A stretch of DNA of 64,000 bases, taken from Symbiotaphrina buchneri (Eukaryota > Ascomycota > Symbiotaphrinales > Symbiotaphrinaceae). The position numbers and the translations under genes are program-made. Under the pieces are notes generated by a model. That model was not told where the DNA came from, did not search any database, and saw only the letters and a program-made list of their open reading frames with translations. Location: assembly GCA_001599915.1 (NCBI GenBank), contig BCIG01000024.1, forward strand, positions 62,001 to 126,000, given 5' to 3'. This document shows, piece after piece, positions 7,745 to 23,936 of the stretch. The first letter of the stretch is position 1. Every line of letters begins with the position of its first letter.

Positions 7745-9693
7745 CTAATGTATCTCCACAAACGGAAAAATGACATGACTCCCATACTTCCCTCCCAAAT
7801 GCACATGATGCCTACCCTTATTCCTCGTCTGGTATTTCCCAGCCGTTGACGGCTCTTCCGGCAACTCCATTGGATGCCCCGCAATCTTCAACACAAGCGA
7901 CTCTCCCGCCGCGAAGACCATGCCCGCAGGCGCAATCGCTATTTCCAGCCTCACCACCTCTCCTGGCTTGATCCTCTCTTCCTTGCTGTGATCATGCACC
8001 GGCCAGTGCGGCTGCGAGCGCCCCTCATCCAGAGCACGGTGGCTAGCGCGGAGCTGGCCCGTGGGACCCAGGTAGACGTAGGGATCTGTCTTGGGAAGTT
8101 CTTCCCTGGCAATGTTTACGATTTTGAGGCTCTCCGGAGGGATATTGTAGCTCTGAAGAATCTTGTAGTGTTGATCTGCTTTGCGCAGCTGGACGAAGAC
8201 GTCCATATCGTCGCCTTCGTCGCAGGACATGTAGAGGACAACTTTGGCGGCGCCCAGGAGATGGAAGGGTGTGGAGAATGTGTGGTGGAAGTGCAGTTCT
8301 TCGGGGTCGTTGTCTTGTTGCGTGGCGGGGATGTCGGATTGGTAAGATTGCGTTTGGGCGTGCAGTGGTGCAATTGTGGGGAGCACGCCCGACGGGGAGA
8401 GGAACAGCTCAGAGTAAGATTTTGTGGAGATGGGCCATGAAGGAAATTCCTTGTTGACGAGATTTTCCTGTTTTATTGTCAGCACAAGCTCTATGGTCCT
8501 CCAGGTAATGCTGACGCACGGTATTGAAACCTAAGAGAGACGCTCGGACTCGAGGAGTGCTTTCCCACCCGGTCTGCAAGTTTTGTGTATACCGGTCAAA
8601 GAAGGATTGGAGCTCGTCGACCGTTTCAGGCTGATACAAGTCATATAGCTCGTTCGTATCAGTTGTCCGAACCCTTTCATTGTTAGCCCTCACAGTTCAC
8701 ACACAGCTTGAACGGCTTACCATCTCTGCTGACTCGGTACGTCGCCCACTCTCCTCAGTATGCCGGAGGTGCAGGAGTACCTCGCAACAATATATGATGG
8801 CGTGGCTATTTTATCAAGCGCGACCTCTTTATCCCTCCAGTACTTATCCTTCAGTGGGTGTTTGTCCAACATCGCAGCCAGGTCTTCCTGCTCATGCCGG
8901 CCGCGGATATACTTCGCCTCCTGCTCGATGAACGCTGTCGACGGCACGCCGCCTCTGCAGACCAAGTCCTCGTACACATCAACTGCTCCACCAAATGTAG
9001 CTATGCACTTTAAGCTCGGCGGCTGCTCTGCCGCGGTAGCCAACGCCGTCGTCGCAGACCACCCGGCGCCGACCATGCACACGCGGCCGTTGCACCACGG
9101 TAATCGAGCGACGAACTCCACAGCACCGTAACCGTCTCTTCCTTCGGCGCTTCCAAACCAGCTAATATCATCGGTCGTCAGCTGACTGTCAAAAAGCACA
9201 AAAGAAAGCAAACTTGACACGATGGCAAGACGAACCTAAAATCGCCCTGCGAATCCCACGTTCCTCGCGCATCGATATTCACCACCGCATAGCCCCTCTG
9301 CGCCCACTCCGCGGGATCCACGCCACCAAATGTCTCATACCCCGAAAGCTGCTCTTCCGGAACACCCATGCGCGCGGCCAAGCCCTCTATCCTCCGAGCC
9401 TCCTTGACGCTTCCGCTCTTGCCGTAAGGGCTTAAGACAATGATTGCTGGAACGCGCCCGGGGAGAGCAGGCCGGAAGATATCGGCGCGAAGGAGAAGCC
9501 AGTCGCGGGTTTGGATCTCGGCGTCGTGTCGGTAGATGCTCTCGATTGGAAACGGTTTCGAGTGTGGATGCCGGCGGTGGCCCTTGAGGAGGATTTCCGT
9601 AGCTGGTTTGGGTGGAGATTTGCTCGTGGGTGTAGATTCGGGAGGTGTCATTGGTTTGAGAAATATATTATTAGTTGTCGGTTTGCTAGCCAT
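7745..9693 (-). CDS. CocE/NonD-family alpha/beta hydrolase (X-Pro dipeptidyl-peptidase S15-like)
   Basis: A 599-aa protein with exons 9693-9236, 9185-8721, 8673-8520 and 8467-7745; the exon sum is in frame. The N-terminal part is an alpha/beta-hydrolase domain with RPALPGRVPAIIVLSPYGKSG, the conserved INIDARGT-like segment (VVNIDARGTWDSQGDF) and the nucleophile elbow GAGWSATT (about residue 193). A helical cap ends in QRWVRTTDTNELYDLYQPET, the usual WLR..H..EWYDLY element, which is restored by the third junction. The C-terminal 240 aa form a PepX-type jelly roll. Family members hydrolyse esters, amides or proline peptides. The usual LHxxG segment before the third junction is poorly kept, so activity is uncertain. 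Confidence 0.78.
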
Positions 9694-10018
9694 TCTTACT
9701 GTTTTCTTTTCGAATGTAGCTGGATTTTGTTCTCGGTTTGATTTGTTTTCTTGTCCGAAGGGAATATTCGGGGGGCGCGGGGTTTGATATATTCTTTGGG
9801 CAACCGGGGCTCGGAGATATCTCGGGTATTCCGTCATCAGGAGAGGGCAAGGCACGAGTCGGGAGCGACGGAAGCGCGCGTGGTGCTCATTGGCCCAAAT
9901 CGTCCACAACCTGAGGTACAAGCCGTGGGATGGAAGGATGGAGAACTGGTGGGGATGGACCCAAGGAAAGCTTGATGCAGGTGGATTCATTTGCAGCTAT
10001 ATTATGATCCTTGACAGC
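9694..10018. other. intergenic, promoter of the CocE-type hydrolase
   Basis: Sits between two minus-strand genes. No gene seen. The open frame upstream of ATG 9693 continues to 9990 but has no conserved character, so it was treated as leader. Confidence 0.5.
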
Positions 10019-11728
10019 CTACGACTTGTTCTCCACAAACAAAACACTAGCCTTCTCCCGCTCGAGCTCCGTCAACTCCTCATACGCGTCGATCTTGTAC
10101 TTGGAAAACTCCCTGGTTGGCACCTTCCTCTGGAACATAATATCCAACTCCTCATACGTGCGACCGCCCGTCTCTGGCAACCTAAAGAACGTCCAGATCA
10201 AGCAAATGATACTCAGGCCACCAAAGAAGAAGCCGGCTTTTCCGATCCAATTCCACGCCGTCGGATTGAGCATGTACGGCGTCATGACCCCAATCACAAT
10301 GTCGACCAGGTACGCGGTAGCACGCGCAAGAGAGACAGTCTTACCACGGACTTTGGAGGCAGGGACTTCACCGACGATAGTATAGAGAGTCGCAGCGACG
10401 GAGGGCGAGTAGACGAAGAGGAAGAGGATCAGAAGGACGGCCTGCGCCCACGACGCGCCTTCGGTCTTGCCCAAGGACGCAAATCCGATGCCAAAGTAGA
10501 GGAGCGTCATGCCGACGAGACCGTAGAAGAAGATGGCACGGCGGCCGACGTATGCGAGGAGCGGCCAGGCAAGGATCGTGCCGACGACAGAGATGGCGTT
10601 GTTGCCGATGTTCAGGGCGAAAGCCTTCTCCGTCGGCAGGCCTGCCTGCTCGAAGAAGTAGGTCGTGTAGGCCTGCAGCGGCGATCCGACAAGAGCCTGA
10701 ATACCATATGCGACGCAGGCAATCTCCGTGCGGCGGAGATCGATACCGCGGAAGCAGTCGAGATATGTCTGGCCGGTCTCCACCTCCTTCTCAAGCTCGT
10801 TCGTATGGATCATCATGGCAACGGTGTGCTTAGCCTGCTTCGCCGCGGCACCGGACGTCAAGCGCTTGACCGTCTTCTCCGCATCAGCGTACCGGCCCTT
10901 GCGCACCAGCCACCAGGGCGACTCGGGCGCGAACATGATGATGCAGAAGAGCGGTAGGGGCCACGCCCACTGCACAGCGAACGGGATCTTGTACGCCCAC
11001 TTGGTTGTGAGTTTCGCGCATTGGTACGTCACGCCCGACGAGACGAACTGCCCGAAGATCCAGCAGAGGCACACGTATGTCGTCAGGTAGCCGCGCAGCA
11101 CGACTGGACACACCTCGGCGGCATAGGTGGTGGTTGAAGCGGCGAAGATGCCGAAAGGCACGCTCGATAGCATACGACCGACCAGCAGCACGGCCAGCGA
11201 GGATGCAAAGAACTGGCAGAATATGGTACCAGTGACGACGGCGAGCGCACCGAGGGTGACGAACTTGCGTCCGACGATTTCAGACAGCCATCCATCGAGG
11301 AAGACGCCGATGACGGTCGCGATGAAACCCATGATGTTCAGCAGCGTCTGCCAGCCGGCAGTAACCTGGTACTCGGTGCCGTCGCCGTACGGCTTGCCAA
11401 AGTCACGCTGGAAGGCAGGCTCGGCATACAGACTACCCAGGAAGGCGGTATCGTAACCGTCCATAATGATGGTCAAAGAGAACGCCACGGACCAGAAGAC
11501 CGCTTTGCGGTACTGCTTGAGACCTTCCCACAGTGTCAGGCTGTGTTCACCGACGGTGGCGAGCTGGGCGTCGCGGGACACGGCGAGCCAGTGCGTGTTC
11601 TCCTTGTTGGCTTCATCGTAGGTGTAATCGCCCTTCTCGACCTCGGCCAGCTGTTGCTTGAGGACTGCCTGCTTCTCAGCATCTGCCGGAGCGGCCATGG
11701 ATTCCGTTGTGGGGGGAATTGAAGCCAT
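10019..11728 (-). CDS. MFS sugar transporter, maltose/alpha-glucoside permease-like
   Basis: An intronless gene for a 569-aa protein with about 12 hydrophobic segments. Family hallmarks are IIMDGYDTAFLGSLYAEPAFQRDFG in the first segment, DGWLSEIVGRKFV (the GRR/GRK loop motif), PESPWWLVRKGR after segment 6, AYVGRRAIFFYG in the second half, and PETGGRTYEELDIMF at the end. This pattern is that of fungal proton-coupled disaccharide permeases of the MAL type. The start at 11728 is the first Met giving a normal hydrophilic tail; a frame extension upstream is not typical. It diverges from the hydrolase at 12360, and its promoter carries the 17-bp element shared with the GH127 gene. It probably imports the oligosaccharide used by the cluster. 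Confidence 0.88.
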   Translation of the reverse strand: MASIPPTTESMAAPADAEKQAVLKQQLAEVEKGDYTYDEANKENTHWLAVSRDAQLATVGEHSLTLWEGLKQYRKAVFWSVAFSLTIIMDGYDTAFLGSLYAEPAFQRDFGKPYGDGTEYQVTAGWQTLLNIMGFIATVIGVFLDGWLSEIVGRKFVTLGALAVVTGTIFCQFFASSLAVLLVGRMLSSVPFGIFAASTTTYAAEVCPVVLRGYLTTYVCLCWIFGQFVSSGVTYQCAKLTTKWAYKIPFAVQWAWPLPLFCIIMFAPESPWWLVRKGRYADAEKTVKRLTSGAAAKQAKHTVAMMIHTNELEKEVETGQTYLDCFRGIDLRRTEIACVAYGIQALVGSPLQAYTTYFFEQAGLPTEKAFALNIGNNAISVVGTILAWPLLAYVGRRAIFFYGLVGMTLLYFGIGFASLGKTEGASWAQAVLLILFLFVYSPSVAATLYTIVGEVPASKVRGKTVSLARATAYLVDIVIGVMTPYMLNPTAWNWIGKAGFFFGGLSIICLIWTFFRLPETGGRTYEELDIMFQRKVPTREFSKYKIDAYEELTELEREKASVLFVENKS

Positions 11729-11925: not shown

Positions 11926-11942
11926 TCTCGGGCCTGACTTTC
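11926..11942 (-). promoter_or_regulatory. 17-bp element shared with the GH127 promoter
   Basis: TCTCGGGCCTGACTTTC on the plus strand is identical to 20554-20570. It lies about 200 bp upstream of the minus-strand transporter start, and the same orientation and similar distance hold for the GH127 gene. It contains a CGG triplet, the half-site of many Zn2Cys6 regulators. Confidence 0.7.
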
Positions 11943-12010
11943 CCTGTATGACAAAGTATTGGGACCCTGCGACAGTGATCAGGGGCTCGACCCCGGAAAA
12001 TTGCAGCGAA

Positions 12011-12036
12011 TTCCCCACGAAATACCCGAGGACCTC
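12011..12036 (-). promoter_or_regulatory. second shared promoter block
   Basis: TTCCCCACGAAATACCCGAG and the six bases after it align with 20615-20641 at about 22 of 27 positions with one gap. The core ACGAAAT is exact. It lies on the same side of the 17-bp element in both promoters. Confidence 0.5.
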
Positions 12037-12359
12037 AGAGAATTCGGCCCGTCACGGGGCCACGTTCGTATTTTTTGATGGACGCGGCATGGAAAGGGCA
12101 GGTCGGGCCCGACTTATACATTAGCGCTGAATCGCCACCAGGGGTCTAGCCGCAGTTGGAGAAGGAAAGTCAAACCCGAGCCTCCACCATCCGAACCTTG
12201 TCGGCGCGTCAGGTGCAATTATTACTTCTTTTACTGCCGTGGCGGATCGACATTGCCCGGCATTATTGGAACCGATCTCTCAGATAACTTGCTCCTCCAC
12301 CTTTCACTTTTTCACCTTTTTCACATCATTCCGTACCCTTTCTACCATCCGCCCCGATA

Positions 12360-14752
12360 ATGGCGTCTTCAATTGAGCTTGCGCCCGAGACGATCGCTGC
12401 TGGGAAACACACAATATCGTGGTCAAACGGCCATGAACCCGTCCTCTCACTGCCGGCGCCTGTCATCCTAGAATCGTCTTCAGCAGCTGTCCCCGCAACT
12501 GTCGATGGCATGAAAACAGACCTCCACTACACCTCCGTCTCCAACACATCATCCGGCTACAAAGCCCATGCTCGGTTCTCGACGTCCGACGGCATAGCAG
12601 GCTCCATCACCGATGACTGGTCCAGCACCCAACCCTCTACTTACACACTGACCCGCCATGTCTCCGTCTCCGAAGCCCAAGCTCACAGTGGTCTCCGGGT
12701 CAATCTGCATCTGCAACCTACGCTGCCCGAAGGCGCCAGCTTCAACGACTTCGAATATTATGCCCCCAATGCTTGCTACAACCTCAACGACCTCAACGAA
12801 GACGGCGTGTGCGACTACCTCGACACCCAGACCCTGTCATACCGCGAGGACCGGCTGAACGCCCTCTCAGTAATGGCATATCATCCCAAGCGGCGGCTTG
12901 CCATCGCGCTATCCCGGCGGGACGTACCCAAATACGACAGCCTACCGCAGCGTGAAAAGGGGCAGCTGGCCTTCCTGCAAGATACCGACGTGGGCAGCTT
13001 AGGCTTCCAGCCTGCGGGGAAGGGCGCGCTGAACGACGTCCTCCTGACAGCGTGCTACCCATTCGCCGAGCGGGAAAGATGCAATGCGCTGTTGGTGGAG
13101 GAGCGCGTGCCATGGGGCGCCTTCAAGCCTGTGAAGGCGGGCGATGAGTTCGAGATCAGCTATACGGTCAGGATCTATGAGGCGCCGTCGCCGCACGAGG
13201 CTCTGTGGATGCTGCTAGGGGAGCAGTTCGAGGCGTTGAAGCCGCGGCCGGTTGCCTTGGACGAAAGTCTGGATGAGATTGCAGCGGCCCGGTTAAAGGC
13301 GCTGCCGAAGTATTTCTTGGTGGATAGTGCGGGTGGAGCGGGCTTTGTGACCAATTGCCATCCGCAGGATGGGGAGCAGCTGGGGAACGTAGTGCAGTAT
13401 GGTATGATGGCTGATCACAGTTCCCCTACCCTTAATCCGCATCAACTGACGTCGCTCTAGGTTTCACCGGCCAAAATATCATGAACGCTGGCAACCTGAT
13501 CAATGCATCCGTCCCCGGGTCGGAAGAATATGAGAAAGCGATGAAGGTTGTCGACTTCTACGTGTCCACCGCCTTGAAATCCCCCTTCGGCTTCACCTAC
13601 GGCCTCTACAACATGGACCTGCAACGACACGACTCCTGGTGGACCGGTCTGCTACTGCCGCTCGCATACGCGGAACCGGGCGACGACCTCGAACGGCACA
13701 TGGGCCCTCTATACGCGCACCGCGAAGCCGTCATCAAAGCCCTCTCAGGCTCGCATGGCGTCTACCTCCGCTGCCTGCTCGAAGAGACCGAAGCCCTGCT
13801 CGCCCTCTACCAATCCCTCTCCTCCGCCCCCGCGTCCTGGCTTGACGTTGTCAAATCCTTCGGCGCATTCCTGCTCACAGCCCAAGAATCCGACGGCTCC
13901 TGGCGGCGCGCGTATTCGCTCGACGGCAAGCCCCTAACCGAACCCGATATATGGTTCGGCCAGACGTACTACCAGCAGCGGTCTTCCACTGCGACCGTCA
14001 TCCCTCTGCTGCTCGAACTGGGCAAACTCACCGGCGACGAGCGATATCGCGCAGCAGCCATCCGTGCCGGCCGCTTCGTGCGCACGCAGCTGGTCGACAA
14101 GGTCAAGCACAACGGCGGCATCCACGACTCCATCTACGCCAAACCCCAGCTCGTCGACCACGAGAGTGTCTACTTCTTCTGCCGTGCGCTTCTGGCGCTG
14201 TACAAGACCGTCGGCGGCGAGTTCTTCCGCGAAGGAGCTATCCGTGCTGCGCAGCTTAGTGCCAGCTGGATCCTGCTGTGGGACGTTCCGCTGCCGTCGC
14301 AGTCTTTCTTAGCTCGTCACAACTTCCGTAGCACTGGCTGGGCCGGCTGTGATGCTCCTGGGGCTGGGTATGTGCATCCCATGGGCCTGATCGCCGTGCC
14401 GGACCTCGTCGACATCGCGCTCTTGTCGGGCGACGTGCTCTTCTTGGACATTGCGGAGCTGTGTCTCATGGCTTGCAACGAAAACGTCGGCACCAAGTGG
14501 GAGTATGCTATGGAAGGGCTGCAGGAGGAGGGATTGTTGCTGAGTCCGTGGTTCTTGGATGATCCGATGTTCGGTGATGATACGGGCTTCGGTGGGCGGA
14601 GGAAAGGTGAGGGGAACAAGACTTGCTTGCCGTGGATCTCAGCCGTCACCGTCTGGGCCGGTCAAGAGATGAAGAGGCGGTTTGGGACGCAAGAGTTTAA
14701 TGTCCTGCGGAACCGCATTGGTGCGAAGCCGATTTTGAACGGTGTCAAATAG
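12360..14752 (+). CDS. putative (alpha/alpha)6-barrel glycoside hydrolase, family not recognised
   Basis: A 777-aa protein with exons 12360-13401 and 13461-14752 (59-nt intron, exon sum in frame). Residues 1 to about 290 are beta-rich and could be a supersandwich domain (TYTLTRHVSVSEAQAHSGLR, EFEISYTVRIYEAP). From about 320 on there are repeated helices with W-, D- and H-rich loops (DLQRHDSWWTGLLLPLAY, SDGSWRRAYS, GGIHDSIYAK, DHESVYFFCRALLALYKTVG, STGWAGCDAPGAGYVHPMGL) typical of six-hairpin glycosidases. There is no signal peptide, so it probably acts inside the cell. Its position next to a disaccharide permease and near GH127 supports a role in oligosaccharide breakdown. The reaction and the exact family are unknown; no known catalytic signature could be assigned. 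Confidence 0.75.
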
Positions 14753-15029
14753 AGTCGCTTAGAAGCATACAATAGACTTAGACGGACCTGTTTTTGCACC
14801 TTTGAAGTTACCTTGCAGCCATTCCTCATTACTTCATATGTGATTGCACATCTGACAGAGACCAGCCCCAGTCATGTATAAGCCCCTCCATGATGTACGA
14901 CCAAGGCCAACCGTTCTCGCTCTCGGTCCTCCGAAGCATCCCTAGCAGTGCTCTTTGCTGCTTGCGATCCGTAATCCACGATCCACCTGTGTTGCCTATT
15001 AGTGAAGTGCAAGTATTCCAGATGTCATT

Positions 15030-16881
15030 TCACCCACAAGAGCACAAGGCGTGACACGCAACAAAACGAGGTGCAGCATCGTCAGTAGATAAAGCTGCAC
15101 CGAACAGAATGGCAGCAAAGGTTGAGATATGGTCCTGCAGGACTCTCAAGTCCCGAGCCGATCCTAAACCCATTCGCAGACGACTTGGATCATAAGCAGT
15201 GAGAAGGATTCTGGCGATGCAGATATGCTGCACTGCCGCCACTGATGATGGTCCGTCAGCACCAAGCCAAGCGATTCGCCGCAAAGTTATCTTACCGTGC
15301 CATGGATGCAAATACCAAACCATCGGGAACGGATTGTCTCCGTCGCGATTTGCGGGCGCGCGATAGAGCGGGCGAAACCCATTCGGTTTCTCGGTCTCCC
15401 ACCGGGCGATTTCACTATCCAGGCGTTCCCACCCCGCGCGGCTCTTACTGTCTTCGTCCGTATAGCAATACTGTATCGTCTCAGCGAGCAGCCAAATGGC
15501 TCGATGCGTACAGCTGCGCTCATCCACTTCCGTCATCACCGACCAGTATTGCTGGAGTGTTTCGTGGAAGGCGGCGAAGTGCATCCTCAATGGCTTCTGG
15601 TAGGCCAGTGCCACTTGAATATCTTGGAGCACGTACGCCCAGAAAGCAGCGGATGTCAGGCCACCCGAGACGGCACATGAGACTTTGGAGTTGACGAAGA
15701 CGGAGCCGCCTAGAAGATGCCGTTGAAGGTCCTCGGCCGGGGCCCGAGCTGCATGCTGTTGGCACGTGTGTAGAGATGAGTTGGAAGGATGGCATAGAAA
15801 GCGCACTACTCACATGACATTTGTTCGAAGAGACGGAGTATGACGGTCGATGCTAGGAGGATATCCATGTCGTTGTGGAAGTCAGGGCTATTGAGCATGG
15901 GTATCAGAAGCTCGACGCATCTTTCGTGGTAGTAGTCTGCTGTCTCGGGCGAGTAGGTACCAGACACGCGCGAGAGATGCCGTGCTGCGATGGCCAGACA
16001 TGCATAGAGCAAAATAGGGTTAGAGGTTGCGCGGCTGAGTACTTCAGTTGCAAAATGTCTCTCATAGTCGCAAACATCCAGCTGGAGTCAGGTTAGTCGG
16101 GTGTCATGAAGTGGCCCAAGGCGAGACGAACCCAAGGAGCCAAAGCATGGTGGAAATGTCGTAACAGAAGCGCTTCATCATAGTCACTCAGCTTTGAAGA
16201 TGACACAAGCAATTCGTGGGAATGGCGGTCGGGTTGAGAAAGCGTAGTCGTGGTGTCCAAGGGCGGTGATGTGTCGGCAGTGGGAAATGGAGAATAACCA
16301 TGGGAAAGGTGGTCGTGAATCGCAATGGATAGACCTGGACTAGGAATCATCGCGCCAGGGCTCGTCATTAGTACAGAAAGGTTACTATTAGGTGACACCG
16401 CTATTGGATCTTCCAATCTGCCATTGGGGGAGAAATCACGATACTCGGATGCAATGGCTTCGGTCTGGTCTTCAAAGACAACTATGGTCCGTCAGCATAT
16501 CTGGCATGGTCGAGAGGTAGTCATAAAGGCCGTAAACTCACAGTCACCAGATACATCGACCCATATCTGATCGTCCGAAAAGGTCAAGTCCGTTTCGCCG
16601 TATCTGGGACTCCCCTCCATGGGCCGGGACGGATTTTGCCCATGGCGGAAGGTGATCTTCCTCTCGACTGCTGGTGACACACATTCCCGTTTCGACCTCA
16701 CACAAGGCGAGCACTCCGGTTTCGTGCCATCACCTGACTCGTAATCAGTCGACAGATAGAACAGCGCCGGGATCAAATCGCACATTTTACATGGCGTTTC
16801 CGACAGGTTAGACTACGGTCAATCTTCAGCCCACTTTTCTCAAGAGCTTGATGCCTTGTGGTTTCCTCACCAGCCTGGCAT
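15030..16881 (-). CDS. Zn2Cys6 transcription factor, ARCA-like
   Basis: A nuclear regulator of 504 aa in seven exons: 16881-16871, 16812-16784, 16733-16542, 16481-16132, 16081-15814, 15748-15296 and 15241-15030. All junctions are GT-AG and the sum is in frame. The first two junctions rebuild the zinc cluster: MPGC, LTCRKRHVKC, then DGTKPEC, SPC and VRSKREC, giving Cys spacing C-x2-C-x6-C-x5-C-x2-C-x6-C. The rest fits the ARCA-like fungal transcription-factor domain (APWLDVCDYERHFA, EDLQRHLLGGSVFVNSKVSC, LTSAAFWAYVLQDIQVALA, ARILLTAYDP). The first coding exon is only 11 nt long. It lies between the two hydrolase genes and is the natural candidate to control them. Confidence 0.82.
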
Positions 16882-17795
16882 GGCCTGTGGCCACCTTTAG
16901 AGTCCGAGCCTCAATCAAGGATACAGGTCTAGGTTGTGAGATGTGGACAAAGCATTCTCGAGCGTGTGAGGCCGGAGGAGTGGAGCGGGAGACGCTTAGC
17001 AACCCAAGTCTTGACGTCGAAATCGTCTGAGCGTCGTAGTAGTTCACGTGACTTCAATCCATCTTCCTGCACTTTATGCACGATTCTTAGCCTTGGCAAG
17101 GCAACCCAACCCAACCGAATTCCCGTGCTCATAAGGGAGGAAAGACGTGGCACGACGCTTCCGGCGTCAGGACAGATGCCTTTCGTTGATCATCTTTCTC
17201 TCTCAGTGCCCTTCCGCCACCTCCCCTATGTGACAGTGTGTTCGGCCGCTGAAACCGCGTCACTAGAAGTCCCAAGTGGCCAGGAGGTGATCCTGAGAAG
17301 TTGGGACAGATGGAGCTATATTGGGCACAAGGCAGGCGGACGAGGAGAAGCGGTGGAAGTTCATGTCTTCGGAAAGCTGATTGTAGCGGCGCGCGAACTA
17401 CCTAGGTGGCAACATCACACAAAAACCCTCGGAGCATAGAGGCACGGTACGTCCTGGAAGGTGTACTTCGTAGATTTGTTGATTTGGTAGGTAGCTGATG
17501 GAATGTCAGAGATAAAGCTCTTTTGGCTATCTATCCTGATAGCTGTCCAGAAAGCTGACTATGGATGGCAGTAACGTTGCGGTATTCTACAGAACGTCTT
17601 GAATGTTTTCGAGTACTTGAGGCGCAGGACCACTCGAAGGGACCCAACGGGGTTCATGAATCATAGGAGATGTGCAACCTCCAAAAGTCGCATGTCCTCG
17701 AAACCCCGCCGAACCATGCACACACAGCAAGTACATCACGCTCGTCCCCACCATACACAATCCCCCGCTCTTCCCCCTGGATTCCCGCCTAAGGT
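16882..17795. other. intergenic, promoter of the Zn2Cys6 gene and 3' side of GH127
   Basis: About 0.9 kb. Open frames on the plus strand reach 167 codons (16936-17439) but have no domain and shadow-like composition. No repeat or RNA gene seen. Confidence 0.5.
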
Positions 17796-20382
17796 CTAAC
17801 ACCCCAACCTCCTCAACCCGACCCTCATCATGCCCCTGCCGGCACGATTCGCGCGCGCAAAATAGGGAACAAACATCAAGGTCTCCGTGCGCAGCTCCGT
17901 CGGCTGCTCGAGCAGCCGCACATCCAGTCCGGGCTCCGCCGCAAGCGGTGGCGAGGCCATGATATGCGCCGCGTGCTCGGCTTCAATGGCGATATATCGC
18001 GTGCCCGACGGCATATCGGCCCTGGAGATCTCGCGCAGCGGCGCGCGGGTGTCGAATTGGACGGACTGTTGGACGGGCGTTAGATTGAACGCTTAAATGG
18101 AAGGAGCAATAAGGAGGGCAGAGGAGAGGAGGGAGGTGGGAGGGCAGGAAGGGGGGAAAGGTGGGAGGGGAAAAGGCAGAGCATATGATTTACCTTGAAG
18201 TGGTCATCGACCCAAGGGTGGTCGGCATCCTCAACGCAGTAGATCAGCGGACCGCGCGCGACGGCCACAACGGGCTGGTTCGTAAATGGATGCGGCGCGA
18301 CGAGGCGGGGTTTGAGCGGGATGGCGAGGTGGAATCCGGTATTTGCGCGCACCCAGGGGCCGGGCAGGTGCAGGTAGCCATTTGATGGCGCGGAGGGCGA
18401 GGTAGGCGTGATCTGCTTGTTTTATTAGTTTGTAGGAATACTAAGGAAGGGCGGGTATGGAGGGGAGATATGAGAGGGACTAAAGGGACTGGGGACGCTT
18501 GTGAGTTGACTAACTTACCGTCCAGTCCTTCGCCCAGCCCGGAATCCGCACATTCACTTCCACGTCGACGCCCTCCGGCGCCTGGACTTCAAATTCCACA
18601 CTGCCCTCCCACGGCCACTCCGTTTTCTGGCGGACCAGCACTTCCCTCCCACCGCCCACATCAACCGTCAACGTCGCCGCCGTAAACAAATGCACATTCA
18701 CCACCACCTTTGACGCGCCCTCTCCCTCCTTATGGACGTCAAAGTCCCAGATATATCCACCTATATACCCCAGCACGCGGGCGACGTTCGGCGGGCAACA
18801 TGCACACTCGAACCAGGACTCGCGCTTGGAGGCGTCGGCGGGGCTCGAGGCCAGCTGGTTGACGTACGTGAAAGCCCGCCCGTCGGCAGACATGCCCGTC
18901 AGCACGGCGTTGTACAGCGCGAGTTCGAGGATATCCGCGTATTTGCTGTCAAGCTCGATCTAGACCGAAACCGCTTCTATCAGCACATGGTCTGCATCAT
19001 TGCTCTTCACATTCGTCGTAAAAGGAAGGACGGTAAAGAAGAGCGAGAGGGTGCGCAGGGCGGGAACAGGTCAGGGAGGGCGAAGGAAGGGACGCGCCTG
19101 TAAGTCCGTTCACTCACCTTCAACATCCGCTCCGCAAGCATCATGACTCCAATCCCCGCACACGTCTCGGCGTAGCAGCCGCCCTCGTCCGTCCCCTGCG
19201 GCAGGAAATAATCGATGCCAAAGCCCTCCCATTGCTTCATGGCGCCGATGCCACCCGTCAGGTACATTTTCTTCTCGACCATGTTGGCCCACAGCCGCTC
19301 CAGCACGGGGCGGTACTTGGCCGCGAAGTCCGCGCCGTCGTCGGCGATGGCGATGTCCGCGACTCCGGTGAGGAGGTACGTGGCGCGCACTGCGTGGCCT
19401 TCGACGGTGGCTTGCTCGACGAGCGGTTTGTGGGCTTGTTGGTACCTGATTTCGAGCTGTACATTAGCACCATAGGACAGATATGCCATGAAGACACGGA
19501 AGGAAAAAGGAAGGAAAAGACAAACCAATAACTCTTCGGCGCGGGCCAGTAACTCGGCGTCTCAAACTCCCTATCCCCTCTGCGCCTCGCCTCAACGGTA
19601 TAATAATGCTCGCCCTCCTCTCCCCGCGGGTTCCCCCGCTCCTCGACGAAGTAACGCGCCAGCGCCAGGTGCTTCGGGTCGCGCGTCACCTTGTACAGCC
19701 GTACCAGCGCGAGCTCGATCTCCGGGTGTCCGGGGTACCCGTGCAGTTGGTCCGGGCCGGGGCCGAACTTTCGCGCAATCAGGTCGACGTATTTTAGAAT
19801 CGGCTCGAGGAGGTCAGTGGTTTTGTAGTGCTGATGGTGGATGAGGGCTGCTTCGATGAGGTGGCCCGCATTGTAACTGAAAGGAGACAGGCAGCAGCAG
19901 TCAGCAACTTCTTTTCCCTTTCTCGCTCTCAGTGGAGAGTGTGTGTTAGGAAGAAAGACGGCACTGGCTACCTACAGCTCATGCAGATCCCTTAGATTAG
20001 TCCACTTCTTGTCGGGCTCGACCACCGTAAAATGCACATTCAGGTAGCCATCCTCCTGCTGAGCGCCGCGGATCATGCTCACCAGCTCCGCCACCGTCCT
20101 GTCGATTCCCTCGTCCGGGAACTCGCGCAGGAAATAGCACGCCCCCTCGATCCACTTGGCCACGTCCGAGTCCCAGAACAGGTGGTTCGGCACCGGCCAG
20201 TTGGTGCACGGTTCGCTGTAGCACGAGTGCCATTGGAGCTTGAAGCAGTCGTACCGGCCCGTGCTCTTGAGCATGTCCAGCTGGTAGGCCAGCGTGGTGG
20301 TGCGCACGATGGAACGACGGGAGCCCCAGAACGAGGAGCTGGGGAATGTGGTGTGTGGGAAGGTGCTTTGGGGGTTCGCCAT
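17796..20382 (-). CDS. beta-L-arabinofuranosidase, GH127 (DUF1680)
   Basis: A 671-aa protein with exons 20382-19976, 19876-19526, 19445-19118, 18959-18519, 18412-18194 and 18065-17796; the exon sum is in frame. GH127 enzymes release L-arabinofuranose from beta-linked arabino-oligosaccharides through a zinc-bound cysteine nucleophile. Visible hallmarks are FWGSRRSIVRTTTLAYQ near the start, DLHELYNAGHLIEAA across the first junction, YQQAHKPLVEQ, LTGGIGA, CYAETCAGIGVMMLAERM (Glu, about 347) and WFECACCPPNVARVLGYIGG (about 410-420), which supplies the Glu/Cys zinc ligands and the nucleophile. A beta-sandwich follows, ending in FVPYFARANR. There is no signal peptide, so it is probably intracellular. 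Its promoter shares the 17-bp element with the transporter at 10019. Confidence 0.9.
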
Positions 20383-20553
20383 TGCGAGGAAGGGAAGCGC
20401 GGGGGTGGTGCCTATTGACGGAAGGATGAGGATGAATAAGGGAATGAGAGCAGGCGAATATGGTCGGGATACTGTGTTTCTAACATGTTGTGATTTCAAG
20501 AAAGAACCGCCCACTCATAACATTTTCCCCATGTGAGGCCTATCGGAAAAGTA

Positions 20554-20570
20554 TCTCGGGCCTGACTTTC
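20554..20570 (-). promoter_or_regulatory. 17-bp element shared with the transporter promoter
   Basis: Exact copy of 11926-11942, located 172-188 bp upstream of the GH127 start codon and in the same orientation relative to the gene. Confidence 0.7.
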
Positions 20571-22009: not shown

Positions 22010-23936
22010 ATGGCGGGCAGCATGGAATTGGAGTCGTCTGCGGCGGTGTTGCAGGTCGGCACCACGACACCGACGACAACGACGAAGGAGTGGACGTTCA
22101 TGGGCCAGACGAAGGCCGCGTGGTATATCTATTGGATTTGCGGTGTAGCTTCGATTGCCAATATGTACGTCTCTACTACAGCAGGCCGTGCAGTCTGACA
22201 TGAGGTGAATCCCGCTGACATTACTTCCAACAACAGCTTCCAAGGTTTCGACTCCGGCATCTACTCAATCATCATCTCCGATGACCGATTCATCGATTAC
22301 TTCGATATCAACAGCTCTAGACAGGGCGTCGTCGCTAGCATGAGTGAGTCTTCTTAGCTGCGGCCCCCCTTGAGCTTTCTGAACAACGGCGGCTAATCCT
22401 CTTCCTTAGTAAACCTCGGAAATGTGGTCGGAAACCTCTTTGTCTCGTGGTGGTTCATCTGGTATCTCGGACGCCGCCACTCCTTCTCCTTGGGGACCAT
22501 CATCCTGCTGGTCGGCGTCGCGCTGCAGGCTGGAGCCGTCAATTTCGGCATGGTCGTTGTAGGCCGGATCATCTCCGGGATCGGAACCGCTATGTACGGC
22601 CTCCTCCCCTGCACCCGCAACTATCTCTCGCACCGGCAAAACTAACACCGTCAAAACAGCATCGGCACCAACCTCGCCTCCTACCAAGCCGAGGTCTCCT
22701 CGCCGCTGATCCGCGGCCGGGTCGTCTCCTTCATCCAGCTCTCGTACCAAATCGGCGTCCTAATCGCATACTGCGTCGGGCTCGGCACCGTCAAGATCCC
22801 TGGGAACAACTCCTGGCGCACCGCCTGCGCACTCCAAGTCATCCCGGGCGTGATCCTTATCGCAGCGTCCTTCACGATCCCCGAGTCGCCACGGTGGCTG
22901 CTCGAGCGGCACCCGGAGCGGCCGGAGCGGGCGCTTAAGGAGCTTGCGCGCGTTCGCCGGCAGCCGCAGGAGTCGGCGGCGGTGCAGGAGGAGTTCCTGG
23001 AGCTGGTCGCGGCGCGAGAGTACCGCGTCGAGCACGAGGGCGAGTACACGTGGCGCTCGTTCTTGGGGCGGTACACCATCTGGAAGCGGATCGCGTACGG
23101 CATGGCGACGATGGCACTGGGGCAGATCTCGGGAGTCGGCGCGCTGATGCTGTATGGCATTCTGATCTTTGAAGGGCTGGGGTTCAGTAGTGGTACGGAG
23201 AGCCTGCTGCTAAATGTCGTCTCAGGCCTGCTGTGCCTGGCAGCGACGCTGGTGTGCACGGGCGGCGTGGATCGCTGGGGACGCCGCATCACGTTGATTG
23301 TGGGATCAGCTATCATGGTGAGCTTTTGAATCTCCTTTTCATAATATATGGCCCTTAGGCCCCCTCGGGACCGGTTCCCTGGACTCAGATTGGCGTATTG
23401 CTAACGCATATTTCCCGTAGGTGCTCTCCTACGTGATCATCGCCGCGCTCGCCGATGCCTACCCGGCGGCGACGCACTTCAACCGGGGCGCGGCCATCGT
23501 GCAAATCATCTTCATCTACGTGATCGAGATGGCATACAGCGGCGCACTCGGGCCATGCGCATGGATCCTAGCATCGGAGATCTTCCCGACGAACCTGCGC
23601 GACAAGGGCGTCAACGTCAGCCAGGCCGGGCAGCAGATCACGACGCTGTGGGTCAACCAGGCCTGGCCGTCCATGTTCAACAACGTGGGCCACAATGCCT
23701 ATTGGATCCTGGTCGGCATCAATTCCGTGGGCTTGGCGGTCGTGGTGGCCTTTTGGCCTGAGACTAAGGGCGTCAGTTTGGAGCATATGGATCGCATCTT
23801 CGGCGAGACGGATAAGGTCGAGGCGTATAAGGGCGAGCATAACGTACAGCAGACGGGCGATTTGAAGGTTGTCCCCCAGGAGGAGCAGGCGGGCAAGGCG
23901 AGTCATCGAGAGGATGTCGGAGATGAGATTGCGTAG
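22010..23936 (+). pseudogene. MFS sugar transporter (lactose-permease-like) with an apparent frame break
   Basis: A transporter of about 540 aa if uninterrupted. Exons are 22010-22164, 22237-22345, 22410-22593, 22660-23317 and 23421-23936. Sugar-porter signatures are clear: IFQGFDSGIYSI, WFIWYLGRRHSFSLG, GRIISGIGTA, IGTNLASYQAEVSSPLIRGR, PESPRWLLERH, GGVDRWGRR, PCAWILASEIFPTNLRDKG and FWPETKGVSLEHMDRIFGE. Within exon 2 the frame giving FIDYFDINSSR must shift by two bases at about 22316-22325 (TCTAGAGACAGGG) to reach the expected QGVVASM; otherwise translation stops soon after. The exon sum is accordingly 3n+2. This may be a broken gene or an AG-repeat sequence error. It would be the second importer of the carbohydrate cluster. 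Confidence 0.72.

Follow-up and report, generated by a model that had tools for sequence, protein, structure and literature searches.

Do neighbouring genes that carry the same short word in their promoters answer to a common switch and, if so, which protein reads it? This question is raised by a sugar-use cluster of Symbiotaphrina buchneri, contained in a stretch of 64,000 nucleotides that was analysed as a whole (the window). A first-pass annotation had reported an exact 17-bp word, TCTCGGGCCTGACTTTC, at 11926-11942 and 20554-20570, before a sugar permease and a GH127 gene, with a Zn2Cys6 gene lying between the two. Both copies are present at these coordinates and the three gene calls are borne out by domain matches. 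The genes concerned are the following.

10019..11728, minus strand: sugar-porter MFS permease, a single open frame (Sugar_tr; TIGR00879 341.8 bits, cut-off 237.8)
12360..14752, plus strand: GHx, 777 aa, with an intron at 13402-13460
15030..16881, minus strand: Zn2Cys6 regulator, the candidate binder, with an intron inside the zinc-cluster coding region (PF00172, Zn_clus, 38.2 bits, cut-off 21)
17796..20382, minus strand: GH127 enzyme, six-exon model, 676 aa, with three GH127 Pfam domains

The GH127 domains, catalytic, middle and C-terminal, all score above cut-off (PF07944 291.9 bits, PF20736 42.8 and PF20737 42.8), and the genome contains a single locus over the family cut-off, recovered as three exon pieces. 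The enzyme is a putative beta-L-arabinofuranosidase, an activity suggested solely by the name of its family; against the NCBIfam model for aceric acid hydrolase two of its exons score 67.5 and 22.8, far under the cut-off of 950. Two further loci adjoin these genes. A second sugar-transporter gene (Sugar_tr, approximately 22060-23936, plus strand) lies next to GH127, and beside the permease, at 7745-9990 on the minus strand, Peptidase_S15 and PepX_C domains are encoded by the open frames of a hydrolase that might also belong to the cluster.

When the whole genome was scanned (23,383,419 bases, 82 contigs), the exact 17-mer was found at these two positions only, both in promoters of the cluster. 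The 16-bp word GAAAGTCARRCCCGAG matches perfectly at three places in the genome, each in a promoter within the cluster and together spanning 8.6 kb, the additional copy being located before GHx. The annotation was correct as to the two exact copies; it missed two more sites, and with them GHx as a third target.

11926..11942, minus strand: site 1, before the permease; GAAAGTCAGGCCCGAGA in gene orientation, core start -214
20554..20570, minus strand: site 2, before GH127; GAAAGTCAGGCCCGAGA in gene orientation, core start -188
12165..12181, plus strand: site 3, before GHx; GAAAGTCAAACCCGAGC, core start -195, three mismatches to the 17-mer
12102..12115, no strand assigned: possible site 4, between the permease and GHx; palindrome GTCGGGCCCGAC at 12102-12113, minus-strand core AAGTCGGGCCCGA at 12103-12115

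Measured from the start codons at 11728 (permease), 12360 (GHx) and 20382 (GH127), the 16-bp cores begin within a spread of 26 bp, and all three perfect copies share the orientation of their own gene, in agreement with the 170-215 bp and common orientation first described for the permease and GH127. In the permease promoter a TATAAA stands at -145 from the ATG, with site 1 upstream of it. The palindromic variant is a fourth, additional site-like word near the permease and GHx. The shorter core AAGTCRRRCCCGA matches six times in the genome, four of them in the cluster (the fourth being the palindromic variant at 12103-12115) and two inside open frames 338 and 372 codons long, against four matches for the reversed pattern; since the 16-mer and the core were derived from these very sites, their genome counts are partly circular. 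A TCCG that follows the sites was set aside as part of the element, its spacing being variable (11, 9 and 7 bases) and the reading post hoc. Sites 1-3 carry the CGG triplet that the annotation had noted, the complementary strand reading CTCGGG. A sequence shared by the promoters of clustered genes and rare elsewhere is expected of a cluster-specific Zn2Cys6 upstream activating site, and such a sequence is found here. The shared promoter element first proposed is well supported, being unique in the genome, confined to the cluster, fixed in orientation and position and present in a third copy; the original observation was right, and is stronger than first noted.

As a near-identical site precedes three neighbouring genes, their joint activation is probable. 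The reading preferred here, which we hold to be fairly probable, is that GAAAGTCARRCCCGAG is a 16-bp cluster-specific upstream activating site, bound most likely by the resident Zn2Cys6 protein, and that the three genes are co-induced. In such a mechanism, the contacts of this protein, whose gene lies between GHx and GH127, would be with the CGG (CTCGGG, other strand) and the adjoining TGACTTTC, and an inducing sugar would lead to the permease, GHx and GH127 being turned on jointly. The presence of a Zn2Cys6 gene inside the cluster and of a CGG in the site supports the resident regulator as candidate binder. Zn2Cys6 sites usually, although not universally, contain two CGG triplets at a fixed spacing. 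Against this reading, the site has one clear CGG, compared with two in the best-studied Zn2Cys6 sites. The switch is of a well-known kind and the mechanism as a whole, judged from sequence, is plausible.

Comparison with known regulators bears on how such a protein might read the site. The nearest solved zinc cluster to that of the regulator is PUT3 (1zme, E 3.1e-5), the yeast regulator of proline use, whose sites reportedly have the spacing CGG-N10-CCG. In the three sites described here CCC, CCT or CTG stands ten bases past the CGG, close to the PUT3 arrangement, and one clear CGG with an imperfect triplet ten bases on would allow an imperfect PUT3-like dimer. However, none of the three sites has a perfect second triplet, and the role of PUT3 lies in proline use; a literature search on PUT3 spacing found no motif. 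A closer analogy than a PUT3-like dimer is the target of Pho7 in fission yeast, TCG(G/C)(A/T)xxTTxAA (PMC5559640), since it too is asymmetric, one TCGG-type triplet leading into a conserved tail (here TCGGGYYTGACTTTC on the other strand). The tails differ, and the two proteins are broadly related only, the Pho7 DNA-binding domain giving a weak match (E 0.023). RhaR / PDR-1, a Zn2Cys6 regulator of pectin-sugar genes, has the site TCGG-X11-CCGA (PMC5469009); the element shares its TCGG, although no CCG lies eleven bases past the CGG in the sites here.

The comparison of published motifs was made by letters and covered those taken from excerpts of PMC5469009, PMC5468973 and PMC12941744; AraR and the motifs predicted for A. 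niger AraR and RhaR (PMC5617896, likewise in excerpt) lie outside it. PMC5468973 and PMC12941744 list motifs for XlnR, InuR/AmyR, GaaR, FarA and FUR1, regulators of fungal plant-biomass or related small-molecule use, and the 16-bp element contains none of the words in that list (GGCTAAA, CGGN8CGG, TCCNCCAAT, CCTCGG and CCGACGG), the FarA word CCTCGG differing from it in the first base. None of the published motifs compared, in the form in which these excerpts give them, contains the 16-bp element, a statement confined to those motifs. Searches of the literature on Zn2Cys6 promoter motifs returned none with CTCGGG among the matches listed, and no paper was found that joins a fungal GH127 gene cluster, a Zn2Cys6 protein and a transporter.

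The rival explanation that survives best, although we consider it rather unlikely, keeps the site as a real co-regulatory element and has it bound by a factor encoded elsewhere, either another zinc-cluster protein or a reader of GAAAGTCA. It is favoured, at the expense of the resident regulator, by the lack of the site in the regulator's own promoter, where the best match to the 16-mer in the 500 bp before the ATG is 11/16, and by the extension of the conserved block well past the CGG, across GAAAGTCA. The promoter of the second transporter likewise gives a best match of 11/16 (500 bp before 22061, a start that is not settled). However, a Zn2Cys6 gene resides in the cluster itself, and the broader regulon expected of a factor encoded elsewhere should show more sites, whilst outside the cluster the 16-mer is nowhere matched perfectly; two matches differ from it at one position and 69 at two, compared with 53 in total for the reversed control, counts that are again partly circular. 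One of the one-mismatch matches (C2:469978) lies inside a 728-codon open frame; the other (C3:329841) lies approximately 210 bp outside a minus-strand open frame of 429 codons, in the opposite orientation. Three of the four closest out-of-cluster matches that were checked fall in long open frames. A wider regulon was set aside, the excess over control being small for the 16-mer and likewise when three mismatches to the 17-mer are allowed (98 against 70), with only the closest matches examined.

That the repeats are a chance or non-functional resemblance is improbable. The annotation had called a repeated 17-mer most unlikely in 64 kb, which is overstated, as at least one occurs in 7 of 20 dinucleotide-shuffled windows of that size (the real window has four), and a third site of 14/17 or better does arise in shuffled GHx promoters, albeit in three of 2000. 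The sharing between promoters is more telling. The longest word common to the 500-bp promoters of the permease and GH127 is 17 bases, whereas the maximum over 1000 shuffled pairs is 15, so that none of these pairs (0/1000) shares 17 bases; across the whole window, 0.21 matches to the 17-mer with up to three mismatches would be expected. The third copy, moreover, agrees with the others in orientation and position. Common orientation, the narrow spread of positions and the shuffled-promoter results together make chance a poor explanation.

It is very improbable that a promoter stretch was recently copied and that this, as opposed to selection on a binding site, accounts for the repeats. The permease and GHx sites are indeed alike beyond the 16-mer (GGAAAGTCARRCCCGAGnCTCCAC), and part of the cluster does recur in the genome as a decayed duplicate; yet the similarity ends at the site edges, and the duplicate reaches none of the promoter sites. 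The proposal that the site is, or overlaps, a target of CreA, and so serves glucose repression as opposed to induction, is the least credible, for although CTCCAC (complement GTGGAG, fitting the CreA word SYGGRG as given in an excerpt of PMC5795998) begins one base past the permease and GHx sites, it is not found beside the GH127 site, SYGGRG occurs nine times in the 631-bp region between the permease and GHx, and the 16-mer itself does not contain it.

The decayed duplicate is partial, comprising the 3' end of GHx and the 3' half of the regulator (window 14540-15874 and 17083-17193), and is located close to the beginning of a different contig (C14:455-1884). C to T or G to A changes account for 243 of its 300 substitutions, in the contexts CpG (89), CpA (79), CpT (44) and CpC (31), and the copy looks like a product of repeat-induced point mutation.

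Aspergillus and Penicillium commonly have homologs of the regulator, at approximately 39-46% identity, and for many of these the fungal regulatory middle domain PF11951 is precomputed; of the window regulator, two pieces of one exon each were scanned and did not match it. The wide distribution of regulator homologs against the rarity of GHx weakens a tight bond between the two, and the main role of the regulator may lie elsewhere. In Penicillium canariense, atrosanguineum and robsamsonii the longest listed contigs of the regulator and GH127 homologs differ in length, giving no support for linkage. In Exophiala sideris, homologs of GHx and the regulator are each listed on a contig 7,897,194 long, possibly one scaffold.

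The two exons of GHx, scanned apart, have no Pfam or NCBIfam match, and its homologs among the matches listed are mostly bacterial or metagenomic and rare in fungi. GHx is a bacterial-type protein, probably acquired by horizontal transfer; viral contigs scanned with the Thermoascus homolog yielded nothing. GH76 was considered as a family for GHx: PF03663 is precomputed for nine of 120 GHx homologs among the matches listed, direct comparison with GH76 sequences gives weak matches (E 0.18-0.21), and the barrel in the predicted fold of a GHx homolog has GH76 chains among its fold matches, in a comparison where the absence of a family from the tables was not counted as evidence.

In bacteria, GH127 is found near the GHx homolog at three of four loci: directly downstream in the first, approximately 3.6 kb away with sugar-transport genes in between in the second, and as two copies in the third, the fourth having no GH127 within its 22 kb. 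This proximity makes co-regulation of the two genes biologically sensible and, although the loci are few, supports a common pathway for GHx and GH127. A pairing conserved across a bacterial family was set aside, as the GHx cut-off was passed in three of 299 genomes, one being the seed, and the other two, with distant GHx homologs (34-36%), have no GH127 in their loci of roughly 5 kb. Full-length identity of the window GH127 to its nearest homologs is approximately 60%, and those of them that carry an organism name are all fungal (best 120 of 7892), compared with 30-33% identity to the bacterial GH127 proteins. Being far closer to fungal than to bacterial GH127, it makes a joint arrival improbable and, as far as so few loci allow, GHx and the window GH127 probably did not arrive together.

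A tentative extension is regulatory capture, in which a bacterial GHx came to lie beside a native fungal GH127 and the pairing was rebuilt with the fungal partner under an asymmetric zinc-cluster switch. Equally tentative is the part of that reading in which GHx, GH127 and the permease would share one pathway-specific 16-bp site with no match among the compared motifs. The cluster offers a sharply defined cis-element and a candidate regulator as a pair for an uncharacterised sugar pathway, one that includes an enzyme from a family that no Pfam model matches, and regulatory capture, if true, would provide a clean case of a horizontally acquired bacterial gene placed under eukaryotic pathway control.
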